From Spirochaetota bacterium (GTDB lineage: Bacteria > Spirochaetota > B62-G9 > DRHN01), in contig DRHN01000450.1 of assembly GCA_011049595.1 (NCBI GenBank), positions 1 through 40,497 of the forward strand: a stretch of DNA of 40,497 nt. Direction: 5' to 3'. Numbering within the stretch: position 1 is the first letter of the stretch; the number at the start of each line of letters is the position of its first letter. The position numbers were made by a program, and so were the translations under genes. This document shows positions 4,350 to 26,985 of this stretch, in pieces. The notes under the pieces are model-generated. The model was not told the origin of the DNA. It did not search any database and saw nothing but the letters and a program-made list of their open reading frames with translations.

Positions 4350-4365
4350 GGGTTGATTGTAAAGG

Positions 4366-8110: not shown

Positions 8111-8978
8111 TGAGACCACCCCCTGACCAGTTTAGCTCGGCAAGGGCCAGGGCCAGCTGGTCATCCGTTACCGGCTTCGCGTGCCATTCCATTCTATTTT
8201 CCATAAAAGAGACCCCTTTCCCCTTTACCGTACGGGCCAGAATTACTTTCGGTCTGCCCTTTTTCTTACCCTTCAACGTTTGAAAGGTTTTATAAATTTC
8301 ATGTATGTTGTGCCCGTCTATTTCTGTTGTATCCCAGCCAAAAACCTTCCATTTTTCCTCCAGGTCGCCGAGGGGCATAATTTCATCAACAGGCCCATCA
8401 TTCTGGATCCCATTCCAATCCACTATCGCGATTAAATTATCGAGTCTGTATTTTGACGCCGTCATAATAGCTTCCCATATCTGCCCTTCATCGTGCTCTC
8501 CGTCAGACAGCAGTGAAAACACGTTGTAAGATTTTTTATCTATTTTCCCGGCAATAGCCATACCCACCGCGGCAGACAACCCCTGCCCCAGAGACCCTGT
8601 GGTCATATCCAAACCCGGGGTCTTTCTCATATCAGGATGACCCTGGAGAATGCTTCCCGGTTGTCGAAGTGTTGCTAATTTTGATCTTGGAAAATACCCC
8701 CTTTCAGCAAGGGCTGCATACACCGCAGGCACCCCATGCCCTTTGGAAAGAACAAAACGGTCCCTGTCGGGCCAATCCGGTTTTTCGGGGTCGATATTCA
8801 TCACCCCGAAGTATAACACGGCAATTATGTCAGCAGCGGAAAGGGACCCTCCGGGATGGCCGGGATGATCGGTTGGAGCGGAGTTTATCATCTGCAATAT
8901 TCGAACTCTAATAGCGGCAGCCCTACCGGCAAGTTTATCTACTGTTTCATCACCGGAAGCTAAACGGTTTTTTGCCAT
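8103..8978 (-). CDS. Transketolase N-terminal subunit (split transketolase)
   Basis: This 291-residue protein holds the ThDP diphosphate-binding domain of transketolase. It shows GHPGGSLSAADIIAVLYFG near residues 40-58, RFVLSKGHGVPAVYAAL, TTGSLGQGLSAAVGMA and the ThDP/Mg motif LLSDGEHDEGQIWEA. A second Asn-containing loop (VDWNGIQNDG) and DGHNIHEI complete the site. It works as a heterodimer half with the downstream C-terminal subunit, with which it overlaps by 8 bases. Length is normal for split N-halves. The start ATG at 8978 has only a weak AGGG site. Substrates cannot be told from sequence; the surrounding polyol dehydrogenases and kinases suggest ketose phosphates derived from the imported sugar. 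Confidence 0.9.
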   Translation of the reverse strand: MAKNRLASGDETVDKLAGRAAAIRVRILQMINSAPTDHPGHPGGSLSAADIIAVLYFGVMNIDPEKPDWPDRDRFVLSKGHGVPAVYAALAERGYFPRSKLATLRQPGSILQGHPDMRKTPGLDMTTGSLGQGLSAAVGMAIAGKIDKKSYNVFSLLSDGEHDEGQIWEAIMTASKYRLDNLIAIVDWNGIQNDGPVDEIMPLGDLEEKWKVFGWDTTEIDGHNIHEIYKTFQTLKGKKKGRPKVILARTVKGKGVSFMENRMEWHAKPVTDDQLALALAELNWSGGGLNE

Positions 8979-12013: not shown

Positions 12014-13954
12014 TTAGTTGTTGTTTATTTTTCTCCATAATGTTGTTCGGCCGATACCGAGTTTTTCAGCGGCAGCCGTTTTATTACCATTTTCTTTTTG
12101 AATCACTTTTTCAATTATTGTTCGCTCGATATCTTCCAGACTACCCATTAAAGGAATCCTTATACTCTTTTGAGGCGTATCAAAACCGTATCCGTCATCA
12201 ATGCCTAAGATTAATTTGCTGCCCGGCAACGATTTTAAAACAAACTTTACATTTTTGGCAGTTATGTAACCTTCCTTTGTTTTTACCATAAGTCTTTCAA
12301 TTATATTTTCCAGTTGTCTGATATTACCCGGCCAATTGTAATTCATTAACAGCTGCGTCCCCTCTTTGGAAATGCCTTCAATAACAATCTTAAATTTATG
12401 TGTGTATTTCCTGACAAAATAGTTTGCCAATAATGGTATATCAATTTTGCGCGCGCGGAGAGGTGGAAGGTTTATGTTTAACACATTGATTCTATAGTAA
12501 AGATCTTCTCTAAATGTATTACATTCAATCAGAGAATAAAGGTCTTTGTTCGTTGATGCTACTACCCGGACATCTACGTGAGTCAATTTATTGTCTCCCA
12601 GCCTCCTTACCTTTCGCTCCTGAATAACACGAAGCAGCCGGGATTGTAAATTAATCGAAATTTCACCAATTTCATCAAGAAATATTGTGCCCTCATGCGC
12701 CTGTTCAAAAAGACCCATTTTACCTTTTTTATTTGCCCCTGTAAAAGCTCCTTCCACATACCCGAAAAGCTCGCTTTCAAGAAGGTTTTCCGGAAGGGCC
12801 GCGCAATTTACCGCCACAAAAGGTTTATTCTTTCTCAGACTCACATTGTGAATCGCCTGAGCAAATAATTCTTTTCCGGTTCCAGTTTCACCATATATCA
12901 GTATGGGAGAATCTACCTGAGCGTAATTCCTGGCCTCCTCCTTTATATATAATATCACTTCGCTTTCCCCGATGATGTCATCGAAACTATTCTCTGCTGT
13001 ATGCCCCTTTAAATATAACTCCTCCCTTATCTTTTGCTCCACCTTCTGTATTTGAGAGACTTTTTGGAATGTAACTATTACTTTGACTATTTCTTTGTTG
13101 ATAATGATTGGAATAACATTAGCCACAATTTTTATACCATCTATTGCCCAGACCTTGCCTTTTGACGTACAGCCGTTTTGAACGGTATTCAACAGATCCA
13201 TACCTGGAAGAACTTCCCCAATGTTTTTTCCAATAACTTTATAAGCTTCCTTGTTAAAAATTTCTTCCGCCCTCGGATTAAAAGTATCAATAACGCCCGC
13301 CCGGTTAATGCTGATAATGCCTTCATAAGCGTAATCTATAATGGTCTTTACCCGTTTCGCCTTTTCGCTTTCCTGCCTTTTAACCTTCAGGACCCGCTCG
13401 GCTTCAAAAAGAGCCTGTATAAGAGCTTCTTTCCCTGATCTGATCAGCAGAGCATTCAATCCTAATTCTTTGGCTGTTTTAACAGAAATAGTATCCCCAA
13501 CAACCCAATTAATACCCATCTTCTTAATATCTTCAAGTTTGGTTTTAATACTGTCTGTATGATGGAAACAATCAAAGTCCAGCGTTATGACATTGAGCTC
13601 AATATTAAAAATATCTCCCAGGTCTTTGATTCCATCTGTGAACGGATTAAAACCAACGATTGCAATTTTATCTGTATGCTCTTTGGCCTGCTGCAGCACA
13701 CGTATCAAATCAAACCCGCTGACCTGTATTTCAACCACAGAAAGATTTATCAGCTCCCCTTTCATCGCTGCGGCAGTTCCCCCTCTGCTTATAACAACAT
13801 CAAAGCCCTTCTCTTCAAGCTCTACCGCTTTTCGAACTCCTTCATCGAGATCTCCTATCTCAATGTGAATGTCTTTTTTAAGTTCTCTGCACACATCATC
13901 AAACAATTCAGCCAATTTTTTATACGGCGCAATAAAAGCTATCGGCTTTGTCAT
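12014..13954 (-). CDS. PrpR-type sigma-54-dependent transcriptional activator
   Basis: This 646-residue enhancer-binding protein has four parts: a PrpR-type N-terminal sensor (about residues 1-185, with DVVISRGGTA), a PAS-like segment (about 205-310), an AAA+ sigma-54 interaction domain and a C-terminal Fis-type HTH. The AAA+ domain shows Walker A GETGTGKE, the sigma-54-contacting GAFTGA loop, Walker B TIFLDEIGEI and the WPGNIRQLENI motif; the HTH includes NGNKTAAAEKLGIGRTTLWRK. PrpR sensors bind small organic or phosphorylated metabolites. It sits between two operons that both have sigma-54 promoters with matching inverted repeats, so it very likely activates both in response to a pathway intermediate. 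The start is behind a GGGGGG-rich stretch 64 bases after the E1 remnant. Confidence 0.93.
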   Translation of the reverse strand: MTKPIAFIAPYKKLAELFDDVCRELKKDIHIEIGDLDEGVRKAVELEEKGFDVVISRGGTAAAMKGELINLSVVEIQVSGFDLIRVLQQAKEHTDKIAIVGFNPFTDGIKDLGDIFNIELNVITLDFDCFHHTDSIKTKLEDIKKMGINWVVGDTISVKTAKELGLNALLIRSGKEALIQALFEAERVLKVKRQESEKAKRVKTIIDYAYEGIISINRAGVIDTFNPRAEEIFNKEAYKVIGKNIGEVLPGMDLLNTVQNGCTSKGKVWAIDGIKIVANVIPIIINKEIVKVIVTFQKVSQIQKVEQKIREELYLKGHTAENSFDDIIGESEVILYIKEEARNYAQVDSPILIYGETGTGKELFAQAIHNVSLRKNKPFVAVNCAALPENLLESELFGYVEGAFTGANKKGKMGLFEQAHEGTIFLDEIGEISINLQSRLLRVIQERKVRRLGDNKLTHVDVRVVASTNKDLYSLIECNTFREDLYYRINVLNINLPPLRARKIDIPLLANYFVRKYTHKFKIVIEGISKEGTQLLMNYNWPGNIRQLENIIERLMVKTKEGYITAKNVKFVLKSLPGSKLILGIDDGYGFDTPQKSIRIPLMGSLEDIERTIIEKVIQKENGNKTAAAEKLGIGRTTLWRKINNN

Positions 13955-14319: not shown

Positions 14320-14607
14320 TCAGTTTTTCCTTTTCATGCCGGTGAGAGCCTCAAAATCATACTCTTCACCCGGCTCACCTATAATCCCCATCGGTGCGCC
14401 GACAGGAAAAACCTGCTCCGGTTCTGCTATTTTTTCTAAAAGCACACCTTCATATAAGGATTCAATATCCAGTATCGATTTTTCAGTTTCGATCTGAAAT
14501 AGAGGTTCTTCAACCTCTACTTCTTCTCCGACTTCTTTTAGCCAACCTACAAATATATTCTCAGTTGTCATTATATCTGAACGCGGCATTACAACAACCT
14601 TAGCCAT
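14320..14607 (-). CDS. Stand-alone lipoyl-domain carrier protein
   Basis: This 95-residue protein is a single biotinyl/lipoyl domain with nothing attached. The hairpin motif ETEKSILDIES places the lipoylatable Lys at residue 43, and the conserved glycines (VGEEVE, YEGVL) bracket it. In normal 2-oxoacid complexes this domain is the N-terminal arm of the E2 acyltransferase. Here no peripheral-subunit-binding or catalytic domain follows, and no E2 or E3 gene is in the window. The gene belongs to operon 2, downstream of an E1 pair and the importer. A carrier role like glycine-cleavage H protein, or service to an E2 encoded elsewhere, are the options. Lipoyl is favoured over biotin because the motif has no M-K-M. 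Confidence 0.85.
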   Translation of the reverse strand: MAKVVVMPRSDIMTTENIFVGWLKEVGEEVEVEEPLFQIETEKSILDIESLYEGVLLEKIAEPEQVFPVGAPMGIIGEPGEEYDFEALTGMKRKN

Positions 14608-14723: not shown

Positions 14724-15755
14724 TTACTTTTTTGATTGTTCATTCTCAAGCTCCTCCATTTTTACAGTAGTGAGAACTCTTCGCCGCGCGGTGTATACAG
14801 CAAATGACACTGCCACAATAAGCATTGACCCGTTAAACAACGGCTCCACAAAGAACTCGGCTCCCATCTGCTGAAGACCTGAAACAGCAACGGCAAGCAT
14901 CAGCACCGCGACCACAGTACCCCCGACATTCATCCTGCCGGGACGGATCGATGTGGCACCCAACAGCGCCCCTGTAAAAGCGGGCAGCAGGTAATTCGGA
15001 CCCGTAGATATCTGACCCACACGCAGCTGAGACGCAAGAATAACCCCCGCGATACTAACAATAACAGATGAGATGATGAAAGTGAGTGTAACGTATTTTA
15101 CCCTTGATATACCGACCAGTTCTGCGGCACGTGTATTTGCTCCAAGGGCGTAAAAATAGCGCCCCAACGGTAAATACTCATATACAAGCCACAGGATAGC
15201 TCCTATCACGATTACAAAAAAAATCGGGATCGGAATGCCAAAAACATTTAGACCGAGCTTCAAAAAACCTGCCGCAAGGTCCTTTCCCAGCACCTGCGCA
15301 CCTCCGGTAACCCAGAATCCGATACCGTACAGGATAGTCCCGCTTCCAAGCGTCGCGATAAAGGCATGTATACCCACACGGGTTATCAGTGTTCCGTTAA
15401 TAAAACCATAAACAGCTCCCATGGCGATCATAATAACAACAATGACTCCCCAGGGTAATGCCGTAACATTCTGAAGTGATATCATTACGATATGCACCAG
15501 TCCAACGAGATAGCCGACTGATAAATCAAAATTATCCGTTGATAACGGCACCATCTCTGCAAGAGCGAGCAATAAAACAACTGACTGGGTATTCAGCATG
15601 GTGCGGAGGTTGAAAGCAGTTGGAAATGTATCAGGCATGAGAGCGGAAAATACAACAATAAGAGTGCCTAAAAATACTGCCAGCCCGTAATTAGAAAAAA
15701 ACTGCAGGATTGATTGTGAAGCCGTTTTCTTCAACTGTCCTGAAGACTTTTCCAT
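14724..15755 (-). CDS. Ribose/sugar-type ABC transporter permease (RbsC family)
   Basis: This inner-membrane permease of about 343 residues belongs to the ribose/xylose/autoinducer-2 class. It has many hydrophobic spans and the family's conserved segments, such as the loop around GFINGTLITRVGIHAFIATLG and a later ALGANTRAAELVGI. It would form the channel of the importer with the ATPase encoded just upstream. I place the start at ATG 15755, one base after the ATPase stop and behind a GAGGA site; the longer frame from 15800 would overlap the ATPase gene by 44 bases and has no clear site. The C-terminal tail is charged and cytoplasmic. It is co-transcribed with the ATPase and binding protein. 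Confidence 0.9.
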   Translation of the reverse strand: MEKSSGQLKKTASQSILQFFSNYGLAVFLGTLIVVFSALMPDTFPTAFNLRTMLNTQSVVLLLALAEMVPLSTDNFDLSVGYLVGLVHIVMISLQNVTALPWGVIVVIMIAMGAVYGFINGTLITRVGIHAFIATLGSGTILYGIGFWVTGGAQVLGKDLAAGFLKLGLNVFGIPIPIFFVIVIGAILWLVYEYLPLGRYFYALGANTRAAELVGISRVKYVTLTFIISSVIVSIAGVILASQLRVGQISTGPNYLLPAFTGALLGATSIRPGRMNVGGTVVAVLMLAVAVSGLQQMGAEFFVEPLFNGSMLIVAVSFAVYTARRRVLTTVKMEELENEQSKK

Positions 15756-15756
15756 C

Positions 15757-17325
15757 TTAATCCTCACATTGCACACTGTATTTTTGCCCGGTATGCTCAA
15801 TTAGTCCGGAGGCAATACCTGTAAGCTGCTCAATCGAAAGGTCTTTTTTTGATATCTCAGCAGTTACCAAACCGCGATTGAATACTATCGCGCGGTGACA
15901 GATCCCGGCAACTTCCTCAAAATCAGAGGAAATAAGCAAAACTCCTTTACCTTCATTTAACCCTTCTTCCATCAAAGCGTAAATATCAGCTTTGGCGCCC
16001 ACATCAACTCCGAAAGTCGGCTCTTCAAGAATCAGGATTTTACTCCCAGCCTCGAATAACCTGGCAAGTATCACTTTTTGCTGATTCCCACCGCTTAAAG
16101 TACTGACAATCCGTTCACCATCCATGGGTTTTACTGTAAAACGTTTGAGAGTTACCTCACATTTATCACGCTCTTCCTTTTTGTATATCGCCGACAATAC
16201 ATTCCGGTCATCGGATACAGGGTTTAAATAGATATTCTCCCGCACAAAAAGACTCTGCGCAAGACTCTCCTCGGCCCTTTTGCTCGAAAGAAAGCCGATC
16301 CCAGCTCTTCTTGCTTCCACCGGGTTCGTCACCTGTACAGATAACCCGTTTACAACAATATCTCCATAATACGCGTCCATAATTCCGAAAAGAGCACGAC
16401 CGACACCCTGATGGCCAGCTCCCCGCAGTCCAACAAGCCCTAAAATCTCGCCTGCTTTTAGCTCGAAAGAAACAGACTTCACGCATCCAACCCTCATGTT
16501 TTGGACCTTTAAAAGGACTTTCGCGGAAGGTGGAGGCGGTTCTATAAAAACCTCAGCTGGAGGTCTTCCTACGATCTTCAAGACAAGGTCGGCCGGCGGT
16601 GTATCTTTTACGAATGTTGTTGATACCTTCTTACCATTACGTAATACAGTCACCCGGTCAGCGATACGATATACTTCATCGAGACGGTGTGTAACATAGA
16701 TTACACCAACACCTCTTTCCCTAATCTGTTTTAAAAAATCGAACAATTTTGCCACATCGTTTTCCGGTAAAGTGGCAGTCGGCTCATCCAAAATGATAAG
16801 GCTCGCCTTTACAGCTAGAGCTCGAGAGATCGCGACAATCGATTTTTCAGCTGAAGATAGTTTCGAAATTTCGGTTTCGAAATCCACAGTGCTCCCCATC
16901 ATTTTTAATACATCCAACGCTCTTTGATTTGTCTCCTGCCAGGAAATAAAACCTTTACGCTTCTTGTAACCGAGGACAAGAGCAATGTTTTCAGCCACAG
17001 TCATGGACTCTATAAGACCAAGGTCCTGATGGATGAACGAAATGGGCAGTTCCTGCGTGTATAGCTGTATCTCTTCACCCTTTATCCAGGCCTTACCGGA
17101 ATCAGGCTCATACTCAGGAATACCCGCAAGTATTTTAATCAATGTAGATTTTCCCGCCCCATTTTCCCCGAGCAGTGCGTGTATTTCTCCCGGATAAACA
17201 TCAAAATCAACACCATCCAGAGCGCGTGTGCCTGTAAATGTCTTCGATAAACCACGTATCACTAAAAGGGGTACAGTCGAGGTATTTTGAGCCTCCTTCC
17301 CGTCCGGTTTTATGTCGGCCACCAT
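15757..17325 (-). CDS. Sugar ABC transporter ATPase with two nucleotide-binding domains (RbsA/MglA type)
   Basis: This cytoplasmic ATPase powers sugar import. Domain 1 has Walker A GENGAGKSTLIK, a degenerate signature KLSSAEKSIVAISRAL and Walker B LIILDEPTATLP followed by the H-loop THRLDEV. Domain 2 has a degenerate Walker A (GLRGAGHQGVGRALFG), but a good signature LSGGNQQKVILAR and LILEEPTFGVDVGAK. One weak and one strong half is normal in this family. I choose ATG 17325, which has GAGGAG 11 bases upstream; an upstream TTG at 17430 would add 35 poorly conserved residues. The stop is one base before the permease start, so translation is coupled. Confidence 0.9.
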   Translation of the reverse strand: MVADIKPDGKEAQNTSTVPLLVIRGLSKTFTGTRALDGVDFDVYPGEIHALLGENGAGKSTLIKILAGIPEYEPDSGKAWIKGEEIQLYTQELPISFIHQDLGLIESMTVAENIALVLGYKKRKGFISWQETNQRALDVLKMMGSTVDFETEISKLSSAEKSIVAISRALAVKASLIILDEPTATLPENDVAKLFDFLKQIRERGVGVIYVTHRLDEVYRIADRVTVLRNGKKVSTTFVKDTPPADLVLKIVGRPPAEVFIEPPPPSAKVLLKVQNMRVGCVKSVSFELKAGEILGLVGLRGAGHQGVGRALFGIMDAYYGDIVVNGLSVQVTNPVEARRAGIGFLSSKRAEESLAQSLFVRENIYLNPVSDDRNVLSAIYKKEERDKCEVTLKRFTVKPMDGERIVSTLSGGNQQKVILARLFEAGSKILILEEPTFGVDVGAKADIYALMEEGLNEGKGVLLISSDFEEVAGICHRAIVFNRGLVTAEISKKDLSIEQLTGIASGLIEHTGQKYSVQCED

Positions 17326-17517
17326 CTGATTCACACTCCTCGATTTCTTATTCTCCGGTTGGTTGAACATTGAAAGCCCGGATTGTGATCTACCAGGCAA
17401 TGTATAAAAATGTAAGATCTGAGCCCCCAATCTTCTATCATTGAAAACACAGGAACTCAGATCTTATTATTATACACTTTTAAATATGGATGTCAATCTA
17501 TCAAGCAAATTACACGG

Positions 17518-18675
17518 TTATTTAACACCCCATATCTTTTTGTACCTGTCCTGGTAGCCGTTCTGAGGGATAAACTCATCATTAATGCCGCCTTCTTCAT
17601 CCACATTATCCGAATCTATACAGAACACAGGCTGGTGCCATGTATACACATCCTCACCATTGAAGTATCTGTTCATGGCGTCAAAAGTCTGATAGACAAA
17701 TAGGTCCCAGGGCTCAGGGATGGTAACAATCTGATATTCACCCTTTCGTATTCTGTCATATGCGCTTGGAGGTGCGTCCGACCCTAACAATATTACATCT
17801 TCCGTGGGAACTCCTCCCGAACGCAGAGAGGAAACCATAAAATCATAGTAGTAGTCTGCAATAGTCATTACATAGAATGGTTTCGGGTGTTCCTGTACCC
17901 ATTTCACGCCGATTTGCGGCATCTGCGTTGGAACTTCAGCTATGGGATAGTTCGCGTACTCAAGCAGTTCAACGCTGCTGACCTCAATAAACCGGTCTCG
18001 CATTGCTTCGGCTTTCGCGCGGGCAATCGCGTATAGAGCGTCATAGAGGACTATGGCCTTGCCCCTTCCGTTTGAATGCGCGATGATGTAATCGGCCAGC
18101 GCCGCTCCAATATCTCCAGGTCTTGTAGTGCTGTTGTACAACAGCCCGTATTCAGGAACAGGACCCGGAATGTGCAACGCGTGCATTCCGGTTACAGCGA
18201 TACCTTTATCATTCGCTTCCTGGATTGGAACCTGTAAAACTTCAGCATTAGCATCAATGAGAATTCCGTCGGGTTTCATGGAAATTGCCTGATTGAATCC
18301 CGCTATCCAGCTATCAACCGTACCTTTACCGTCTATACTTACAACTCTCCACCCGATTTCCTCCCCCAGCCGTTCAGCATAATCTGCCATTACTTTCACA
18401 ATATGGTTCTGAAAATTGGAACCGAGAAAAACAATAAACTTATCGGGAGCAAGTTTTGGCCCGGATGTCGGCCCAACCCACTCGGTCTGCGGGCCCTTTC
18501 GTTCATCTGTCAGCTCAATTGCCCTTTTGACCAGGGCCCTGTCTTCAGCCGAGAGCTCGGCGAGAGGAGCCCCCGTCACCGTATCAGCCGTTTCCTCCTT
18601 TTCTGAAGCGAAAGCCGGCACAATAAATGCCAAACATACAACTAATACCAGACAAAACAGTATCGGTTTTTTCAT
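17518..18675 (-). CDS. Periplasmic sugar-binding protein of the ABC importer
   Basis: This protein of about 385 residues has a clear signal peptide: KK, then a hydrophobic core, ending VPAFA before SEKEE, so signal peptidase I cleavage near residue 24 is likely. No lipobox is evident. The mature part is a type I periplasmic binding fold (FIVFLGSNFQNHIVKVMADYAERLGEE; PDGILIDANAEVLQVPIQEAND; DVILLGSDAPPSAYDRI). It captures the substrate and delivers it to the RbsC-type permease. Start ATG 18675 has GGAGG 6 bases upstream; a GTG four codons earlier is less likely. It is preceded by a 247-base gap. The ligand cannot be named; relatives bind ribose, xylose, erythritol, inositol and similar compounds. 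Confidence 0.88.
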   Translation of the reverse strand: MKKPILFCLVLVVCLAFIVPAFASEKEETADTVTGAPLAELSAEDRALVKRAIELTDERKGPQTEWVGPTSGPKLAPDKFIVFLGSNFQNHIVKVMADYAERLGEEIGWRVVSIDGKGTVDSWIAGFNQAISMKPDGILIDANAEVLQVPIQEANDKGIAVTGMHALHIPGPVPEYGLLYNSTTRPGDIGAALADYIIAHSNGRGKAIVLYDALYAIARAKAEAMRDRFIEVSSVELLEYANYPIAEVPTQMPQIGVKWVQEHPKPFYVMTIADYYYDFMVSSLRSGGVPTEDVILLGSDAPPSAYDRIRKGEYQIVTIPEPWDLFVYQTFDAMNRYFNGEDVYTWHQPVFCIDSDNVDEEGGINDEFIPQNGYQDRYKKIWGVK

Positions 18676-18872
18676 CTTTTCCTCCACTTAAATTATTGAG
18701 ATTAAAATTAAGAACATTTAAAAAATTTTTATACCCACCTGCTTCACGGTCGGCAAATTCTTGCAAAATACAGCATACTTTATTATTCAGTATACCTTTT
18801 CACAATACCGAAAAACTAGAACCATCGTTGATCATTTGTTCATAAAATATCCCACTATCGTAATTCTATTTT

Positions 18873-18922: not shown

Positions 18923-19972
18923 TTAATAAGTAAGCAGCTCTTGTACCGCCTGTACGATATGATGCTTTTGAGGAAGAACTGCTTCTTCCAGGGGATTCGT
19001 ACATTTTTTCAATTCATCAGATAACGCCGGTATGGCTCCGTAGCCGCCACCTTCTCCGGTACGTGTCAGGCTGAACGGTATAGGGGTATTTTTTGCAGCT
19101 ACAATCTTAATCGGCGCTTTCAACGACTTAAAAGCCTTTTCAGATACAATGCTTGAAATGTGCGCTCCGTATCCACCGCGCCTCACAGCTTCATGTGCTA
19201 TAACTAAACGTCCGGTCCTGCGAACCGAATGGAGGATCGCTTCTTCGTCCGTCGGAACAAGGGTACGGAGGTCGATTATCTCGGCGCTTATCCCTTCAGT
19301 TTCTAAATCCTCGGCTGCATCTATGGCAAAGTTCACCATATCCGACCAGGAGACGATCGTAACATCCTTACCTTTTCGCCTCACATTTGCAACACCCAGG
19401 GGAACAGTGTAATCACCTTCAGGAACAGGGCCTCTACTGTTATATAGCATTTTATGTTCTATAAAGATCACGGGGTCATCGTCACGTATAGAAGATAACA
19501 AAAGCCCCTTTGCATCAGCCGGAGTTGAGGGCATTACCACTTTCAGTCCGGGTATGTGGCAGTAAAGAGCTTCAAGACACTGGGAATGCTGGCAACCGAC
19601 AGACACACGGCCCCCTTCCTGCATCCTGATCACCATTGGAACTGAAGACTCTCCTCCTGTTATATAACGGATCTTTGCTGCACGGTTCATTATATGATCC
19701 ATTCCAAGTGTCGAAAAATCAATATACATGATTTCAAAAACCGGACGCATACCCGCTAAAGCGGCCCCAACAGCTGCCCCGGAGATAGCCTCTTCACTCA
19801 AAGGGGAATCTATCACCCTATCTGATCCGAATTCCTCCCACAACCCTGCCAGGACCATAAAGGTGTTGCCTAACCGGCCTATATCTTCACCCAAAAGAAA
19901 AACGCGGTCATCCTTCAACATCTCAAATCTTATTGCTTCTCTTATGGCCTCTGATCCCTTGATCTCTCTCAT
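18923..19972 (-). CDS. E1-beta subunit of a 2-oxoacid/acetoin dehydrogenase-type ThDP enzyme
   Basis: This 349-residue E1-beta subunit is complete. It contains LLGEDIGRLGNTF, the conserved Glu region DSPLSEEAISGAAVGAALAG, GCQHSQCLEALYCHIPG and DPVIFIEHKMLY. The C-terminal domain follows (EGISAEVIDLRTLVPTDEEAI; RTGRLVIAHEAVRRGGYGAHI) and the end is intact. With the E1-alpha encoded 123 bases upstream it forms an alpha2beta2 enzyme that decarboxylates or cleaves a 2-oxo compound and passes the two-carbon or acyl fragment to a lipoyl group. The usual E2 and E3 genes do not follow; a sugar importer and a free lipoyl protein do. Acetoin dehydrogenase is the nearest classical annotation, but the substrate is probably linked to the imported sugar. 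Confidence 0.9.
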   Translation of the reverse strand: MREIKGSEAIREAIRFEMLKDDRVFLLGEDIGRLGNTFMVLAGLWEEFGSDRVIDSPLSEEAISGAAVGAALAGMRPVFEIMYIDFSTLGMDHIMNRAAKIRYITGGESSVPMVIRMQEGGRVSVGCQHSQCLEALYCHIPGLKVVMPSTPADAKGLLLSSIRDDDPVIFIEHKMLYNSRGPVPEGDYTVPLGVANVRRKGKDVTIVSWSDMVNFAIDAAEDLETEGISAEIIDLRTLVPTDEEAILHSVRRTGRLVIAHEAVRRGGYGAHISSIVSEKAFKSLKAPIKIVAAKNTPIPFSLTRTGEGGGYGAIPALSDELKKCTNPLEEAVLPQKHHIVQAVQELLTY

Positions 19973-20095
19973 GGTCCCGTAGCCTCATGTGAACAACCTG
20001 TATATTTTAGCACTCAAATATTCCTGTCTGCTAGACAGAACTTCAATATTAATGTACCAACCCCTTCTCCCGTACCGTAAAAAAAAACGCACAAA

Positions 20096-21058
20096 TTATT
20101 TTTCCACGCCAAAAACATCTTTCAGCGCTATTTCAACATCAGGAAAGGGAGATCTCAGAGCATATTCAACCGCCTTCTCAATCTCCTCATCGATTTCCTT
20201 TTTCATATCGTTGTGGGCATCTTTACTAAGTAACCCGTTTTCTTCAAGAGTTTTTGCAAACGCTTTTACCGGGTCCTTTTTACGCCACATTGCAATTTCT
20301 TCTTTAGATCTATAGGTTTGCGGATCACCCTCCCGGTGGCCGCGCAACCGGTACGTTGTTATTTCCAAAAGTGTTGCACCATTGCCTTTTCTTGCCCGGT
20401 CTACCGCTCTACAGCCGGCTTCATACACTGCAATGGGATCATAGCCATCGATTTTCTCACCGGCAATGCCAAAGGCCTTAGCACGTGCTGAAAGACCGGG
20501 TTTTGCAGTAGATATTTCAGTATGGGTTGAAATTGCATAGAGATTATCTTCAAGAATCAGCAAAATAGGAAGCTTCCATAATGATGCCATATTCATTGCT
20601 TCATACAGGCACCCCTGATTTGCAGCCCCGTCTCCGAAAAAATACGCAGACAGATCACCATTTTTTTGAAGTTTCTGAGCAAGAGCCGTGCCGACCACAG
20701 GGCCAAACCCGCCTCCTACAATCCCATCAGCGTAAACATTGACATCAGTAGCAATAACATGCATATGGCCACCCTTGCCATGATTGTACCCCCACTCTCT
20801 CCCAAAAACCTCCGCAAGTACTTTATCCATCCGAGCCCCTTTTGCAAGAAGATGCCCGTGTGCGCGGTGAGTGCTGAAAACAAAATCCGGATCCCGCAAG
20901 TGAATACACACCCCGGATGCGATTGGTTCCTGGCCGATATACAGGTGTATGTGCCCGGGAATAAATCCTTCCGCGTAGAGTTGGATACATTTCTGCTCAA
21001 ATCGTCTTATTCGAAACATCGATTTATATAATAAAATCTGTTTTTCAGGATCTATCAT
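20096..21058 (-). CDS. E1-alpha subunit of a 2-oxoacid/acetoin dehydrogenase-type ThDP enzyme
   Basis: This 320-residue E1-alpha is complete. It has the N-terminal helix FRIRRFEQKC, the GHIHLYIGQEPIASGV loop, STHRAHGHLLAKGA, KGGHMHV and the ThDP/Mg motif FGDGAANQG with the paired Asn in LEDNLYAIST. The usual RGHREGDPQTYR loop is present. RAHGH replaces the more common RGHGH, a mild variation. It is the first gene of operon 2, 77 bases from a sigma-54 promoter, with an AGGGGGAT site ahead of the ATG. That position makes the E1 the most directly induced enzyme of the regulon, which argues that it acts early in the pathway and not as a general pyruvate dehydrogenase. Confidence 0.9.
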   Translation of the reverse strand: MIDPEKQILLYKSMFRIRRFEQKCIQLYAEGFIPGHIHLYIGQEPIASGVCIHLRDPDFVFSTHRAHGHLLAKGARMDKVLAEVFGREWGYNHGKGGHMHVIATDVNVYADGIVGGGFGPVVGTALAQKLQKNGDLSAYFFGDGAANQGCLYEAMNMASLWKLPILLILEDNLYAISTHTEISTAKPGLSARAKAFGIAGEKIDGYDPIAVYEAGCRAVDRARKGNGATLLEITTYRLRGHREGDPQTYRSKEEIAMWRKKDPVKAFAKTLEENGLLSKDAHNDMKKEIDEEIEKAVEYALRSPFPDVEIALKDVFGVEK

Positions 21059-21134
21059 TGCAGAAAAATCCCCCTGATGGACACAGAAATACGTTTAATA
21101 TCAAAGTTATTATATAAATTATTAGTGAAATAAC

Positions 21135-21150
21135 TGCAAAATTAATGCCA
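21135..21150 (-). promoter_or_regulatory. Sigma-54 (-24/-12) promoter of operon 2
   Basis: The minus-strand sequence TGGCATTAATTTTGCA matches the sigma-54 consensus with correct spacing and is nearly the same as the operon 1 promoter. It lies 77 bases upstream of the E1-alpha ATG. The divergent region 21059-21829 (771 bases, very AT-rich, no gene seen) also holds the repeats listed next. Confidence 0.85.
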
Positions 21151-21363
21151 ATTTAATTTTATTTATTTCAAAGTGCTAATCCGAGCTTGACCGGCTGATC
21201 CACATTTTCAAATAATTCAAGATTTTTTTAAATGTTTAATTGACCAAATATAATGAGTTATAAAGAATTAATAAAATATTGTATTCTACGCCTGAATACA
21301 CATTGAAACTATTTTAGCAAACCTTTAATATACAATTAATAATACAGATACGTGTCCACGGGC

Positions 21364-21387
21364 CTGTCATTTTTTCGAAAAAGACAG
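21364..21387. promoter_or_regulatory. Imperfect palindrome in the divergent intergenic region
   Basis: CTGTCATTTTTTCGAAAAAGACAG is a 24-base near-palindrome with one unpaired base, flanked on both sides by GGCCTG direct repeats (21361 and 21394). It may be an operator, possibly for the RpiR regulator encoded at the end of operon 3. No U-run follows, so a terminator is less likely. Confidence 0.4.
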
Positions 21388-21445
21388 CTTAATGGCCTGA
21401 AATAATACATTTCATATTAATCTTATAGAAACCTATCTTTTTCTA

Positions 21446-21480
21446 TGTTTCAAAATAAAAAGGTGTTTCAAAAAGAAACG
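21446..21480. promoter_or_regulatory. Paired activator-binding repeats upstream of operon 2
   Basis: TGTTTCA occurs at 21446 and 21464, each followed by AAA and an imperfect right arm. The second, TGTTTCAAAAAGAAACG, keeps GAAAC. They share the TGTTTCA half-site and 3-base spacer of the repeats at 11873 and 11951. They lie about 300 bases upstream of the operon 2 sigma-54 promoter, distant but acceptable for a looping activator. Confidence 0.55.
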
Positions 21481-21616
21481 GTTCACTATAATCATTATTT
21501 CAAATAAATATCACAAATGAATTTAGACATTTTAATTTAGTCACTTATTATACCAATATTATAAAAACTGTCAAGTAAATATTTTCATTTTATTTTCTTG
21601 TAAATGAAAATTTATA

Positions 21617-21645
21617 TTGATATTTTTAACTCCATAAAATATATT
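21617..21645 (+). promoter_or_regulatory. Candidate sigma-70 promoter of operon 3
   Basis: TTGATA and TATATT are separated by 17 bases, 185 bases before the kinase ATG. The surrounding DNA is so AT-rich that a chance match is possible. No sigma-54 promoter is visible on this strand. Confidence 0.35.
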
Positions 21646-21829
21646 AAAATTTATGTTCGTATTAATTGTTTTATATTAAGAATTTACTACTTTATTGTTA
21701 ATCTATTTTATATTTTTCATTTAAACATTTTCATAATATAATATGAAAAACGGAAATATATATTAATACCAGCGCAACTCTTTTTATCAAGCAGATTTAA
21801 TCGGTAATTAACAAAAAAACGATCACAAA

Positions 21830-23362
21830 ATGAAAAAAACTGACAACTTTTTGATGGGTGCTGATATAGGAAGCAGTTCTTGCAAAATTAGTATTGTTGA
21901 CGATACTGGCAGAATATTGGCTTATGGAAATACCGATTATTTTGCCGAAACAAAAAAAGAAGGGTGGGCTGAACAAAATCCCGATGTCTGGTTTCAGGCT
22001 TTCAAATCATCTGTTCGACAATGCCTGAAGGAAAGTAGAATACCACCCTCCAAAATTTACGCGCTGAGCGTTTGCGGCCCGGCTCATAATGCAGTTCTTC
22101 TTGATAAAAATAATGAAGTTCTCCGGCCGGCAATTTTGTGGTGGGATCAACGCAGCACGCATCAGAGTGACTGGCTGCTTAAAAAATTTGGAAGAACAAT
22201 ATTTAAAACAACACTTCAGCCTGTACATCCAAGCTGGACACTCGCTCAACTACTCTGGATAAAAGAAAATGAACCATACATATTTAAGAAAATTCATCGA
22301 ATAATCATCGGAAAAGACTTTATTACATACAGACTCACCGGGTCATGGCAGACTGATTGGTATGATGCTATGGGAACACAGCTGTTCAATGGAAAAGCAA
22401 AAAAATGGTCAAAAGAGATCTGCCGGATATTAAACCTTCCTGTTAAATGCCTTCCACCGGTCCTTAACTCATTGGACATCGCAGGACATGTAACCCCTTG
22501 CGCAAGCATTGAAACAGGACTCCCTGTTGGTCTGCCGGTAGCTGTTGGAAGCGGAGATTCTGTAGTTGAAGCCTTCGGAGTCGCTGCCGTTGAACCAATG
22601 GACTGCCTTGTAAAACTGGCAACAACAGGGACGGTCAGTGTGGTGACCGCAAAACAGCACCCAAGCAAAAAGGCCATGTCGTATTTTCATGTAATCCCTG
22701 ACCTTTTTTACACAATTACCGCAACCAACTCCGGGGCGTCATCAGCTCAGTGGTTCTATAAAACATTTCATGATAATGCAAAAGATTCTTATGAAACCAT
22801 GGAACAGCTAGCGGAAAAAGTTGCACCAGGTAGTGAGGGTTTAATATTTCATCCCTACCTGAAGGGAGAACGCTCTCCATACTGGGACCCGGACCTGCGG
22901 GCTGATTTTATAGGTATTTCTCATACTCATAAAAAACAACACTTCATAAGAGCGGTCTTTGAAGGGGTGGCATTTTCCCTGCGGGATTGTATGGAATTGA
23001 TCAGAAGCATGGATATTCCAATTAAAAGAACTTTTCTGGTTGGAGGCGGTGCCAGAATCAAACTGTGGCGTCAAATTACCTCTGACATTCTTGCAACAAG
23101 GCTGCATATTCCAAAAGTGCCTTCTCTTTATGTTGCGACCTACGGGGCGGCCCTTCTCGCGGGTTTGGCCTCTGGAGTTTTTTCGAGTTTAAAGGAAATC
23201 ACTAAAATTGCCGGAAAATCTGATGAAACAATCAAACCCGATCCAAATTATGCGGATCAGTATGAAAAAACATATACAGTTTATAAAGAAATTACCCGGA
23301 ATTTACAGCCGATCTATAAAAAACTGAAAAATATTTACTCCGGTCAGAAATCTATTAAATAG
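21830..23362 (+). CDS. FGGY-family carbohydrate kinase (xylulokinase-like)
   Basis: This 510-residue kinase phosphorylates a ketose or polyol with ATP. The N-terminal domain begins LMGADIGSSSCKISIVDD and includes SVCGPAHNAVLLD and ILWWDQRSTHQ, the xylulokinase-type substrate loop. The C-terminal domain has AVGSGDSVVEAFG with the catalytic Asp, TTGTVSVV, YLKGERSPYWDPDLRADFIG and LVGGGARIKLWRQI. Length is normal. The PAHN in place of the usual MHG in xylulokinases hints at a different sugar. No Shine-Dalgarno precedes the ATG at 21830. It is first in operon 3, 38 bases before an E1-alpha gene. Xylulose, apulose, erythrulose or similar are possible substrates. Confidence 0.88.
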   Translation: MKKTDNFLMGADIGSSSCKISIVDDTGRILAYGNTDYFAETKKEGWAEQNPDVWFQAFKSSVRQCLKESRIPPSKIYALSVCGPAHNAVLLDKNNEVLRPAILWWDQRSTHQSDWLLKKFGRTIFKTTLQPVHPSWTLAQLLWIKENEPYIFKKIHRIIIGKDFITYRLTGSWQTDWYDAMGTQLFNGKAKKWSKEICRILNLPVKCLPPVLNSLDIAGHVTPCASIETGLPVGLPVAVGSGDSVVEAFGVAAVEPMDCLVKLATTGTVSVVTAKQHPSKKAMSYFHVIPDLFYTITATNSGASSAQWFYKTFHDNAKDSYETMEQLAEKVAPGSEGLIFHPYLKGERSPYWDPDLRADFIGISHTHKKQHFIRAVFEGVAFSLRDCMELIRSMDIPIKRTFLVGGGARIKLWRQITSDILATRLHIPKVPSLYVATYGAALLAGLASGVFSSLKEITKIAGKSDETIKPDPNYADQYEKTYTVYKEITRNLQPIYKKLKNIYSGQKSIK

Positions 23363-23400
23363 AGTGATAGAGAGAAAAAATTTGTAAAGGAGCTTTTAAT

Positions 23401-24381
23401 ATGGATGATGTTTCTGAATTGAGATCATATGAACCTCAATTTTTAAAAAGCATTTTAAAAAAAATGGTAATGATCCGTGAATTCGAACTAAAAATCAACA
23501 GGCTGTTTCTTCAGGGAATGCTGCCCGGTACTATTCACCTGTCTCATGGTCAGGAGGCAACAGTTGTCGGGGTATGCGAGGCATTGAACACAGACGATGT
23601 CATAACAATCACACACCGAGGACACGGACAGGCGCTTGCAAAAGGTGTTACTCCGAAAGAGCTCATGGCCGAGCTTTTTGGTAAAAAAACCGGATGCTGC
23701 AAGGGTAAAGGAGGCTCTCTTCATGTAGGCAAAATGTCTGTTGGGGCTTTACCGGGAATTGCTATCGTGGCAGCTTCCGCACCCATTGCTTCTGGAATGG
23801 CCCTGGCATTTAAACAGAAAGGTTCAAAACAGGTATCTGTATGTTTTCATGGGGATGGCGCAAGTAACGAAGGCGATTGGCATGAGGCATTAAATCTAGC
23901 CGCTGTTTTCAAACTTCCTGTAATCTTCCTGTGTGAAAACAACCTTTACGCTGTCACAACCCATATAACTACTGTAACTTTGGTTCCTGATATCGCAAAA
24001 CGGGCCGGAGCATATGGAATTCCGGGAAAATCCGTGGATGGCAACGACCCGGTTGAAGTTTTCAAAGCTGCTAGCAGGGCAGTTGAGCACGCCAGGGGAG
24101 GGAAGGGGCCTACATTGCTTGAGTGTAAAACCTACCGGCAGGGCGGTCATAAACGTGATGACCCAGCGACTTACAGACCAAAGGAAGAAGTAGCTGCCTG
24201 GCTTGCTAAAGACCCCATTAAATGTTTTCAAGAGAAGTTAATGAAACTGGAAATAGTGGCCCCTAAAGATCTGGAAGTTATAAGACAGAGTGTTCTCGTA
24301 GAATTAAACGAAGCGGAGAAATTCGCGAAGGGAAGTCCGTTCCCGGAAGTAGAATCAGCCGCGGAGGGTGTCTATGCCTGA
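23401..24381 (+). CDS. E1-alpha subunit of a second 2-oxoacid/acetoin dehydrogenase-type ThDP enzyme
   Basis: This 326-residue E1-alpha is complete. It shows MVMIREFELKINRLF, GTIHLSHGQEATVVGV, THRGHGQALAKG, CKGKGGSLHVG and the ThDP motif HGDGASNEGDWHEAL with CENNLYAVTT, then YRQGGHKRDDPATYR. It differs from the operon 2 alpha subunit enough to be a separate enzyme and not a recent duplicate. A strong AAAGGAG site precedes the ATG. It overlaps the beta gene by 8 bases, so the two are translated together. The residue after the ThDP motif and the loop around GKMSVGALPG, where others have an MHI(A/V) segment, may set its substrate. The upstream sugar kinase suggests a carbohydrate-derived substrate. 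Confidence 0.9.
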   Translation: MDDVSELRSYEPQFLKSILKKMVMIREFELKINRLFLQGMLPGTIHLSHGQEATVVGVCEALNTDDVITITHRGHGQALAKGVTPKELMAELFGKKTGCCKGKGGSLHVGKMSVGALPGIAIVAASAPIASGMALAFKQKGSKQVSVCFHGDGASNEGDWHEALNLAAVFKLPVIFLCENNLYAVTTHITTVTLVPDIAKRAGAYGIPGKSVDGNDPVEVFKAASRAVEHARGGKGPTLLECKTYRQGGHKRDDPATYRPKEEVAAWLAKDPIKCFQEKLMKLEIVAPKDLEVIRQSVLVELNEAEKFAKGSPFPEVESAAEGVYA

Positions 24382-25420
24382 ACCAAAAGGCAGAAATATC
24401 ACAGTTGTGGAAGCCATCCGGGAGGCTGTTACCCAGGAAATGAAAAATGATGAATCGGTGTTCATAATCGGTGAAGATATACGTATAGGCGGCTCTTTTT
24501 TATTTACATTAGGGCTGGTGGATAAATTCGGCCCGGATAGGATCATAGATATGCCTATATCCGAGTCCGGGTTCGTGGGAATGGCTATTGGCGCGGCCAT
24601 TCAGGGCCGCAGACCCATTGTGGATTTTCAGTACGGTGATTTTGTTTTGGAAGCGATGGATCAAATAATCCAGCAGGCTTCCAAGCTACATTATATGTCT
24701 GGAGGCCAGGTAAACATCCCAATTGTTCTTCAGATGCCGACAGGTGCTTCAGGCAGAGGTTCTCAACATGCGAACTCTGTAGAGGGTTTTTTCTTCCACA
24801 TACCGGGACTTAAATTGGTCACTCCATCCACCCCCTATGACGCAAAAGGTTTAATGATACGATCAATCAGAGATAATAATCCAGTTATGTTTTGTGTCCA
24901 CAAACACAACTACGGTAGCAAAGGCCGCCCTCTTTCAAATAGCACGATTGCAACCGGTCATGTCCCTCAAGAACCTTACACCATTGATTTTGGTAAAGCT
25001 GATATAAAAAGAACAGGAAAAGATGTTACAATTGTGTCAATTCTGAGAATGGTACACCTTTCTATCAACGCTGCTAAAGAATTACAAAAGGAAGGGATAA
25101 GTGCGGAAGTAATAGATCTTAGAACTCTTGTACCTCTTGATACGGAAACAATAATAGATTCAATTAAAAAAACACACAGGCTTGTGATTGTGCAGGAGGA
25201 CAACATGAGAGGGGGCTGGGGCTCCGAAGTGTCTGCAATTGTCGCTGAAAACGCACTTTCCTACCTTGACGCGCCTATTTTACGTGTCGCGTCTTTGGAC
25301 ACGCCTGTTCCTTTTTCACCGCTGCTGGAAGATATTGTAATTCCCAATGAAACAAGGATTATTAATACAGTCCGCACCCAAATGGATATGAATATAAAGA
25401 AGGATTTTAATGGTCAATGA
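24374..25420 (+). CDS. E1-beta subunit of the second ThDP enzyme
   Basis: This E1-beta of about 348 residues is complete. It shows IIGEDIRIGGSFLFT, DMPISESGFVGMAIGAAIQG, GRGSQHANSVEGFFFHIPG, DAKGLMIRSIRDNNPVMF and the C-terminal domain from DVTIVSILRMVHLSI through PVPFSPLLEDIVIPNETRI. A roughly 12-residue insertion (around SKGRPLSNSTIATG) lies between the HKHNYG segment and VPQEPY, where other beta subunits have a short loop; this is near the active-site entrance. I choose ATG 24374, with GGAGG 6 bases upstream, over GTG 24368. It overlaps the alpha gene before it and the lipoyl gene after it. Confidence 0.9.
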   Translation: MPEPKGRNITVVEAIREAVTQEMKNDESVFIIGEDIRIGGSFLFTLGLVDKFGPDRIIDMPISESGFVGMAIGAAIQGRRPIVDFQYGDFVLEAMDQIIQQASKLHYMSGGQVNIPIVLQMPTGASGRGSQHANSVEGFFFHIPGLKLVTPSTPYDAKGLMIRSIRDNNPVMFCVHKHNYGSKGRPLSNSTIATGHVPQEPYTIDFGKADIKRTGKDVTIVSILRMVHLSINAAKELQKEGISAEVIDLRTLVPLDTETIIDSIKKTHRLVIVQEDNMRGGWGSEVSAIVAENALSYLDAPILRVASLDTPVPFSPLLEDIVIPNETRIINTVRTQMDMNIKKDFNGQ

Positions 25421-25652
25421 CATAGTAATCCCGCAAATAGGTGAAGCCTCCTCCGAATTCTATCTTGTTAAATGGCTTAAAAATACCGGTGATCGAGTGA
25501 CAGAAGGAGAGACGCTTTTTGAACTTGACATAGAGAAATCTGTTTTAGAAATAGAATCGGTTTATACCGGAATCTTAACTGAAATCCTGGTAGAGGAAGG
25601 AGAAAAAGTTATACCTCTACAGGTAGCAGGTAAAATCATAACGGATGAATGA
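25410..25652 (+). CDS. Second stand-alone lipoyl-domain carrier protein
   Basis: This 80-residue protein is a lone lipoyl domain. DIEKSVLEIES carries the predicted lipoyl-Lys at residue 43, the same position as in the 14320 gene, with the GDRV and YTGIL glycine turns. It is only distantly similar outside the motif, so the two carriers are probably specific to their own E1. It overlaps the E1-beta stop by 11 bases and the next gene starts close behind, so it is made together with the E1. No E2 catalytic domain exists here. A free carrier that takes the fragment from E1 and hands it to an unlinked partner is the straightforward reading. Confidence 0.87.
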   Translation: MVNDIVIPQIGEASSEFYLVKWLKNTGDRVTEGETLFELDIEKSVLEIESVYTGILTEILVEEGEKVIPLQVAGKIITDE

Positions 25653-25665
25653 ATTGAGGGAAAAA

Positions 25666-26064
25666 ATGACTGAAATTACCGTGAATAGCAATAAAAAAAT
25701 AGACGCAATTAATATCACTGGCAATATTTCCAATTTTATCCCCGAAAATGCTCAGGGATTTATCCATCTTTATTGCCCGCACTCCACTGCCGCTCTTATT
25801 ATAAGTGAATATGAGGATAAGCTGATCAAAGATCTCAAAAGTGTGGCCAACCGGCTTCTAGAGCATTGCGGACCCTTTGAACACAATGATAACAATAATC
25901 CAAACGCCTCCGCCCATATTTTAAGCAGCATTATGGGTGTCAGTACATGGGTTCCCGTTCAGAACGGCAAAATGAAATTGGGCAAATATCAAAATATTCT
26001 TTTGCTTGAACTGGATGGCCCCAAACAACGTAAAATTCAATTTTCTTTTATAAAAGCTGAATAG
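25666..26064 (+). CDS. YjbQ/UPF0047 family protein
   Basis: This protein of about 132 residues belongs to the YjbQ (UPF0047) family, recognised by CPHSTAALIISE, the NPNASAHILSSIMGVS segment and a C-terminal LLLELDGPKQRKIQF. The conserved His residues of the family pocket are visible in PHST and SAHI. E. coli YjbQ is reported to have weak thiamine-phosphate synthase activity; the true role of the family is unclear. Its gene directly follows the E1 and lipoyl genes, so the association with a ThDP enzyme may be meaningful. I choose ATG 25666 with GAGGG five bases upstream; an ATG at 25645 overlapping the lipoyl stop is the alternative. Confidence 0.85.
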   Translation: MTEITVNSNKKIDAINITGNISNFIPENAQGFIHLYCPHSTAALIISEYEDKLIKDLKSVANRLLEHCGPFEHNDNNNPNASAHILSSIMGVSTWVPVQNGKMKLGKYQNILLLELDGPKQRKIQFSFIKAE

Positions 26065-26109: not shown

Positions 26110-26985
26110 ATGGAAAATATCGAAAAAAGAAACAGTTTTAACTGGCTTTTAAAATTAAAAGCCATTTACAATTCATTAAAAACTGCGGAAAAAAATGCGG
26201 CCGAACATCTTCTAAAACATTCGAATTTGCTATCAGGGATGACAATAACAGAGGCTTCGAAATTTATTGGGTGCAGTCAGGCAACACTATTCCGCCTATC
26301 AAAAAAATTGGGGTTCAACGGTTACCCTGAGCTCCGTCAGGCATTCAAACTTAACCGGGATAGTAAAGAATTTTATCTTTACACTGATATAAAACAGGAT
26401 GATTCCAGTGAAAAAATACTAAACAAAGTTTTTTCCACCACTATTCACACCATCCAAAACACCCTGGATGTTGTGAATCTTTCTGAATATGATAAAGCTC
26501 TAAATGCGATTTTAAACGCAAACAAGATTTCATTTTTTGCTATCGGGGGAGCATCATCTGTAGCAATGATCGGATTTTATAAATTTAACCGTATCGGCTG
26601 TAATTGTACATATTATACTGATCCTGATCTATCACTTATCGCAGCCTCCCATTTAAAAAAACAGGATGTGTCAATCCTTATATCCCATTCAGGAAAAAGC
26701 AAACCTGTTATAAACGCTGCAAAATTAAGTAAAGATTCCGGAGCTACTTCAATATCAATTACTAATTTCCCTTTGTCCCCTCTGGCAAAAATCAGCGATA
26801 TTATTCTCTTAACGGCAGCTTTTGCTGAATATTCATCGAGAGATATTTTAGCCAACCGAGTTGCTCAGTTATGTCTGATAGAATCCCTTTATATCGGGGT
26901 GTTTAACATCCTGCACAAAAATAAAGATGAATTATTAAGTAATGTAAACAAGATTGACGATATCATTAAGTTAAATAAAGTGTAA
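26110..26985 (+). CDS. RpiR-family transcriptional regulator with SIS domain
   Basis: This 291-residue regulator has an N-terminal RpiR HTH (about residues 15-90, with MTITEASKFIGCSQATLFRLSKKLGF) and a C-terminal SIS sugar-phosphate-binding domain (about 120-280, with FFAIGGASSVAMIGFYKF, ISHSGKSKPVINAAKL and ATSISITNFPLSPLAK). RpiR proteins respond to a phosphosugar and usually control adjacent sugar genes. As the last gene of operon 3 it probably controls that operon in response to the product of the FGGY kinase. No Shine-Dalgarno is evident before ATG 26110, 45 bases after the YjbQ stop. The near-palindrome at 21364 is a candidate site. Confidence 0.9.
   Translation: MENIEKRNSFNWLLKLKAIYNSLKTAEKNAAEHLLKHSNLLSGMTITEASKFIGCSQATLFRLSKKLGFNGYPELRQAFKLNRDSKEFYLYTDIKQDDSSEKILNKVFSTTIHTIQNTLDVVNLSEYDKALNAILNANKISFFAIGGASSVAMIGFYKFNRIGCNCTYYTDPDLSLIAASHLKKQDVSILISHSGKSKPVINAAKLSKDSGATSISITNFPLSPLAKISDIILLTAAFAEYSSRDILANRVAQLCLIESLYIGVFNILHKNKDELLSNVNKIDDIIKLNKV

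Follow-up and report, generated by a model that had tools for sequence, protein, structure and literature searches.

The 40,497-nucleotide window analysed here is one contig (C450) of a draft Spirochaetota genome, G000 (4.44 Mb in 521 contigs, 89% complete, 7.7% contamination), and is a catabolic island for a sugar, a polyol or an acid sugar. Open reading frame and profile searches located in it two intact gene pairs for the alpha and beta subunits of thiamine diphosphate (ThDP)-dependent dehydrogenase E1 components (E1-alpha and E1-beta), two short lipoyl proteins and two broken E1 units (Table 1). On the plus strand, an FGGY kinase, E1-alpha, E1-beta, an 80-residue lipoyl protein and a YjbQ protein are tightly packed in that order (module 2), with overlaps of a few bases at the E1-alpha/E1-beta, E1-beta/lipoyl and lipoyl/YjbQ junctions. 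The last of these brings a gene of the YjbQ/UPF0047 family into overlap with the lipoyl gene of an E1 operon. The order on the minus strand is E1-alpha, E1-beta, sugar-binding protein, ATP-binding cassette (ABC) ATPase, permease and a 95-residue lipoyl protein (module 1). The 95-residue gene is separated from the E1 pair by the three importer genes, about 4.3 kb, and adjoins a 71-residue remnant of an E1-alpha.

The E1s of the window have the features of 2-oxoacid and acetoin dehydrogenase E1 components: an E1_dh domain in the alpha subunit, Transket_pyr and Transketolase_C domains in the beta subunit, and a ThDP motif, present as GDG...N in E1-alpha of module 2. The closest solved relative of that subunit is the E1-alpha of pyruvate dehydrogenase (PDH; E = 5e-63), and the solved chain nearest to its E1-beta is 3duf_B. 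Against TIGR03182, the equivalog for PDH E1-alpha, the two E1-alphas score 337.8 and 339 bits, below the cut-off of 393.85, and they are best described as relatives that may lie outside PDH itself. An E1-alpha tree groups module 2 with relatives from genomes G004 and G005 (support 96/93) and places module 1 in another clade, which rejects the idea that the two modules are copies of each other.

Both short lipoyl proteins match PF00364 above its cut-off and carry Lys43, the predicted site of lipoylation, in an EKS context. They are therefore assigned to the E2-type lipoyl family, E2 being the dihydrolipoyl acyltransferase. The 80-residue protein matches solved lipoyl domains of E2s, and the best NCBIfam match of the 95-residue protein is PRK14875, acetoin dehydrogenase E2, over the lipoyl part only. 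A role as biotin carriers was rejected because the MKM biotin motif is absent and the best matches are lipoyl domains of E2s. Neither protein matches GCV_H, the family of the glycine-cleavage H protein (GcvH); the GCV_H match of the genome sits on contig C434. The original prediction of two complete E1 pairs, of Lys43 in both short proteins and of two broken E1 units in the island is borne out by these searches, Pfam finding both pairs to be full length. Its placement of a lone lipoyl protein in the operon of each pair holds for module 2 and needs qualification for module 1, where the lipoyl gene shares the strand of the E1 genes but lies at the distance given above, outside the interval that had been marked.

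None of the 30 window genes scanned with Pfam encodes an E2 core, a dihydrolipoyl dehydrogenase (E3) or a lipoate ligase. The module had been described as lacking E2 and E3, which is correct for the window but not for the genome. Ten matches to PF00198, the acyltransferase core family, occur in G000, about eight of them sharing a reading frame with a lipoyl domain, as complete E2s do. On contig C219, however, a 235-residue protein consists of the E2 catalytic core only (PF00198, E = 7e-76), with the HxxxDG motif kept and with neither a lipoyl nor an E3-binding domain; its closest solved relative is a PDH E2 core. A single E3 gene scores above the family cut-off (contig C203), and LipA is also encoded. 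An acyltransferase core and an E3 are thus available in the genome, but the usual arrangement, in which lipoyl domain and core form one polypeptide encoded with E1, is not what is found: the lipoyl proteins are separate and the core stands alone on another contig. An arm-less core and an E3 elsewhere are also largely what the original prediction had named as evidence against itself, co-regulation aside.

The lone core is conserved. It occurs in seven of the eight sampled genomes of the order, with orthologues in G001, G003, G004, G005, G006 and G007 that are 57–77% identical to the G000 core and, where the frame is complete, 240–272 residues long; the G005 copy is cut by a contig end. In five genomes, those of the first family, it lies near dnaX, ybaB or recR; it was not found in G002, another member of that family. 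Across 296 genomes of the phylum the lone core was seen in none outside the order, and nearly all other good matches are in longer, full-length E2 frames. In a tree of E2 cores, the lone cores of the order fall together in a single clade (SH-aLRT 100), with complete E2s from the phylum itself as neighbors. A lost N-terminus is unlikely in G000 because the roughly 300 bp upstream of the core, before a divergent gene, are too short to hold it. An assembly or frameshift artefact was rejected on this ground and because five genomes share the surroundings of the core and it stands alone in seven.

A scan of reference genomes and plasmids showed that the module recurs. Neighbourhoods of E1-alpha, E1-beta and a short lipoyl protein without an adjacent E2, which the original prediction had proposed to seek, were found in Sphingomonas and Rhizorhabdus; in the Sphingomonas genome, a lone core lies on the contig of the module at a distance of about 50 kb. 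In a Peptostreptococcaceae metagenome-assembled genome, a free lipoyl protein of 81 residues, a lone core of 237 residues, E1-alpha and E1-beta are neighbours, twice. A Shinella plasmid encodes E1-alpha, E1-beta, an 80-residue lipoyl protein, GlpD, a class II aldolase and a 225-residue lone core, in a setting of sugar ABC genes, FGGY kinases and a lipA paralog. E1-alpha, E1-beta, lipoyl protein and lone core are consecutive in a degradative operon of Paraburkholderia, and Tritonibacter and Rhodobacteraceae SC52 have an E1, a larger core-less lipoyl protein and a lone core close by. A close parallel to module 1 is in Rubrobacter, where E1-alpha, E1-beta and a lipoyl protein accompany a sugar importer, GlpD, glycerol kinase and an aldolase. 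No lone core was found near the module in Rubrobacter, of which the whole plasmid was viewed, or in Sphingobium, Croceicoccus or Azospirillum. Plasmids of Agrobacterium and Rhizobium carry E1 and lipoyl genes with an alpha/beta hydrolase, and sugar regulators, kinases or importers nearby. The proposal that a free lipoyl carrier is dedicated to an E1 within a sugar operon is supported by the recurrence of the module on the plasmids of Shinella, Rubrobacter, Agrobacterium and Rhizobium, in each case together with sugar ABC importers and kinases or with sugar regulators.

Two further features of these plasmid-borne operons were recorded. Paralogs of lipA (lipoyl synthase) accompany E1 and free lipoyl genes in sugar operons at L281:3061-4014 and L284:10103-11074, and an alpha/beta hydrolase directly follows the free lipoyl gene at L284:8249-9007, L285:8318-9016 and L286:8240-9028. 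In acetoin systems, AcoC has an acyltransferase-type domain with the alpha/beta hydrolase fold. The hydrolase may therefore be the detached catalytic part of an AcoC-type E2, and the Agrobacterium and Rhizobium modules another form of split E2.

Mapped onto the E1-alpha tree, the label 'free lipoyl' has to change about ten times, and well-supported branches force at least six of these changes. For the lone core, a quick method applied to the E2 core tree gives about six changes with at least three forced; one of the labels (L211) is probably a complete E2 wrongly called a lone core. Because the trees force several changes of label, detachment of the lipoyl arm has probably happened repeatedly and independently.

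We favor, with moderate confidence, a distributed E2, in which an operon-specific E1 and a diffusible lipoyl carrier use an E2 core and an E3 supplied in trans, because a lone core, an E3 and LipA are all encoded in the genome and because the split parts are neighbors in three other lineages. From the genes, domains, neighborhoods, conservation and recurrence described above we infer the lipoylation of the carrier, its partnership with E1 and core, and an acyl-CoA product. The module would be an acetoin- or 2-oxoacid-dehydrogenase-type system with its E2 taken apart, and each sugar operon would bring its own E1-alpha/beta, which sets the substrate specificity, and its own small free lipoyl protein. 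The ThDP enzyme would cleave or decarboxylate a sugar-derived ketose, acyloin or 2-oxoacid and reductively acylate the lipoyl protein, which would diffuse to an E2 core encoded elsewhere, most likely the 235-residue core at G000:C219. The core would transfer the acyl group to coenzyme A (CoA), and the lone E3 (G000:C203) would reoxidise the dihydrolipoyl group.

Several observations weigh against this scheme. The lone core lies outside the sugar island and may not be co-regulated with it, and its housekeeping partner may be a fused E1 (about 756–770 residues) found in all genomes of the order that were checked. G006 and G007, both incomplete drafts, have the lone core and the fused E1, and no E2-type lipoyl protein was detected in them. 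The complete E2s of G000, about eight, could serve the carriers instead. Finally, the G000 assembly is itself a draft, with the fragmentation, completeness and contamination given at the outset.

The relatives allow a broader version of the distributed E2. In G004, which is a single contig, E1 pairs are followed by a 94-residue lipoyl protein or by lipoyl and E3-binding proteins of 159 and 174 residues without a core, and the gene right after a fused E1 in G003 and G004 encodes a GcvH-type protein, with no glycine-cleavage genes nearby. A small tree joins these E1-linked GcvH-type proteins to the order's orphan GcvH proteins (93/94) and separates them from those of glycine cleavage; G006 and G007 also encode GcvH-type proteins. 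It is conceivable, though we hold the idea only tentatively, that throughout the order a single arm-less E2 core and a lone E3 serve many E1s, both split and fused, by way of diffusible carriers. Such a carrier may be a lone domain of the E2 type, a protein with lipoyl and E3-binding domains, or a member of a dedicated H-protein subfamily that has the motif ESVKSVSD and differs from the H protein of glycine cleavage. On this scheme the tethered swinging arm would be dispensed with. The succession of fused E1-alpha/beta and GcvH-type carrier with this motif was seen at L266:6706-9450 and L317:5073-7906, in two genera of the family. G004 also has an E1 pair followed by a run of genes that includes a ThDP decarboxylase with lipoyl and E3-binding domains fused to it; at L273:9552-11750, such a decarboxylase-type enzyme of 732 residues, with one domain of each kind, adjoins an E1 pair.

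The original prediction had the free lipoyl protein loaded by E1 in the manner of an H protein; on that reading it would pass its fragment to an acceptor other than an E2, without transfer to CoA. The comparison with H protein has support, since the fused E1 directly precedes a GcvH-type carrier in two relatives. The island does lack an E2 core, no lone core lies near the modules of Rubrobacter, Sphingobium, Croceicoccus and Azospirillum, and in Agrobacterium and Rhizobium it is an alpha/beta hydrolase, rather than a core, that stands by the lipoyl gene. The absence of E2 and E3 on which that proposal was partly based nevertheless fails genome-wide, core, lipoyl protein and E1 stand split and side by side in three other lineages, and the hydrolase may itself be a split E2; we therefore regard this use as unlikely.

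It is somewhat less probable still that the carriers hand their acyl groups to the complete E2s, or that the E1s bypass them for those E2s, the short proteins being accessory arms. The complete E2s have lipoyl domains of their own, and no lipoyl gene lies near several E1 pairs of this and related genomes (L102, L104, L278, L279). Such an arrangement leaves unexplained, however, why the lipoyl gene overlaps E1-beta in a compact operon and why lone cores and free lipoyl proteins coexist in unrelated lineages. Decay, with the short proteins as what remains of complete E2 genes after loss of the core and with the island as a degenerating remnant, might be suggested by the two broken E1 units (one adjoining the 95-residue protein). 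It is very improbable, because both short proteins are intact and compact with the lysine kept, the 80-residue gene overlaps both of its neighbors, and the same arrangement is intact in other phyla.

Downstream on the minus strand the island also encodes, besides the features in Table 1, a zinc alcohol dehydrogenase, two short-chain dehydrogenases/reductases (SDRs) and a threonine-dehydrogenase-like enzyme. The broken fused E1, from a gene in which alpha and beta are naturally joined, has lost its C-terminal transketolase domain through an internal deletion and a frameshift, with a C-terminal tail in another frame; because these are visible, truncation by the contig end was rejected. In the E1 phylogeny it is sister to the GcvH-linked fused E1 of G004 (99/90). 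The DRL gene adjoins the split transketolase within the sugar-catabolism island, a position that suggests a use outside isoprenoid synthesis. The gene neighborhood indicates sugars, and no single substrate emerged from it. A 1-deoxyketose was considered because of the gene resembling type II 1-deoxy-D-xylulose 5-phosphate (DXP) reductoisomerase and because E. coli PDH E1 mutants make DXP (PMC3424233), a chemical precedent for an E1 handling 1-deoxyketoses. Our guess, which fits the neighbor genes, is a 1-deoxyketose phosphate, yielding an acetyl group and glyceraldehyde 3-phosphate, or a 2-keto acid.

Table 1. Features of the catabolic island, with positions in the window and supporting matches.
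Feature	Position	Strand	Evidence
FGGY sugar kinase (XylB-like), first gene of module 2 run	21830..23362	+	TIGR01312, 417 bits (cut-off 380)
E1-alpha of module 2, ThDP-dependent dehydrogenase E1 component, 326 aa	23401..24381	+	Pfam E1_dh, E=1.4e-82
E1-beta of module 2, 350 aa	24368..25420	+	Transket_pyr + Transketolase_C; PRK09212, 361.5 bits (cut-off 321)
Free lipoyl domain protein, 80 aa, predicted lipoyl-lysine Lys43 (IEKS)	25410..25652	+	Pfam Biotin_lipoyl PF00364, E=4.8e-14
YjbQ/UPF0047 protein, secondary thiamine-phosphate synthase family	25645..26064	+	TIGR00149, 97.6 bits (cut-off 67.75)
RpiR-type regulator with SIS domain	26110..26985	+	HTH_6 + SIS
E1-alpha of module 1, 320 aa	20096..21058	-	Pfam E1_dh, E=2.4e-78
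E1-beta of module 1, 349 aa	18923..19972	-	Transket_pyr + Transketolase_C; PRK09212, 362.6 bits
Periplasmic sugar-binding protein	17518..18687	-	Peripla_BP_4, E=2e-21
Sugar ABC ATPase	15757..17430	-	ABC_tran, two stretches
Sugar ABC permease	14724..15800	-	BPD_transp_2, E=5e-21
Free lipoyl domain protein, 95 aa, predicted lipoyl-lysine Lys43 (TEKS)	14320..14607	-	Pfam Biotin_lipoyl PF00364, E=2.4e-7
Broken E1-alpha N-terminal remnant, 71 aa	14018..14233	-	Resembles E1-alpha N-terminus; no Pfam match
Sigma-54 activator with PrpR_N + PAS domains	12014..13954	-	Profile search
Split transketolase (C half 7166-8119, N half 8103-8978)	7166..8978	-	Profile search
DRL / type II DXP-reductoisomerase-like oxidoreductase	5769..7100	-	PF21135, E=2.6e-49; 268 bits to PDB 3upy
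Acid-sugar branch (DUF1537-type kinase 4366-5673, PdxA-like dehydrogenase 3324-4349)	3324..5673	-	Profile search
Fused E1-alpha/E1-beta gene, broken	81..1625	-	E1_dh + Transket_pyr only

Full-text literature searches, whose coverage was of open-access and not of subscription papers, turned up no account of a sugar operon in which a free lipoyl protein accompanies a split E2. Textbooks explain the working of such complexes by a swinging arm that is tethered to the E2 core. Arm and core split into separate genes, repeatedly and in several phyla, would provide a direct test of whether tethering is needed. The modules also point to an unassigned class of sugar and polyol catabolism that depends on lipoate, in operons on plasmids whose annotation is at present only 'biotin/lipoyl-containing protein'.

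The free carriers have counterparts among known systems. Like GcvH, they are small lipoyl proteins that would shuttle between separate enzymes, and GcvH-type proteins do follow the fused E1 in G003 and G004; the window proteins, however, belong to the E2-type family PF00364 and not to GCV_H (PF01597). LbpA lipoate-binding proteins of Hdr-like sulfur oxidation, which are GcvH-like, linked to Hdr-like genes and proposed to be sulfur carriers, are likewise free lipoyl proteins reserved for one pathway and encoded alongside its genes (PMC6067878). With the pyruvate and other 2-oxoacid dehydrogenase complexes the system shares E1 subunits whose closest solved relatives are those of PDH E1, a lone core of PDH type and an E3, but here the arm is untethered from the core, E1 and carrier sit in sugar operons, and core and E3 are single genes elsewhere. 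The acetoin dehydrogenase system (AcoA/AcoB/AcoC/AcoL, often with the sigma-54 activator AcoR and the LipA-like AcoS) has the same E1-alpha/beta fold and a lipoyl arm, and a sigma-54 regulator and SDR dehydrogenases also lie near the window module; the lipA paralogs in the clusters of Shinella and Agrobacterium have a counterpart in acoS, from the aco cluster of Pelobacter (PMC3543383). Unlike that system, the window has a sugar importer, sugar kinases and a split transketolase but no acetoin genes, its lipoyl domain is a separate protein, and its operon holds neither acyltransferase nor E3. The module appears to work like an acetoin or 2-oxoacid dehydrogenase, yet it departs from the usual layout of such complexes because arm and core are encoded by separate genes.

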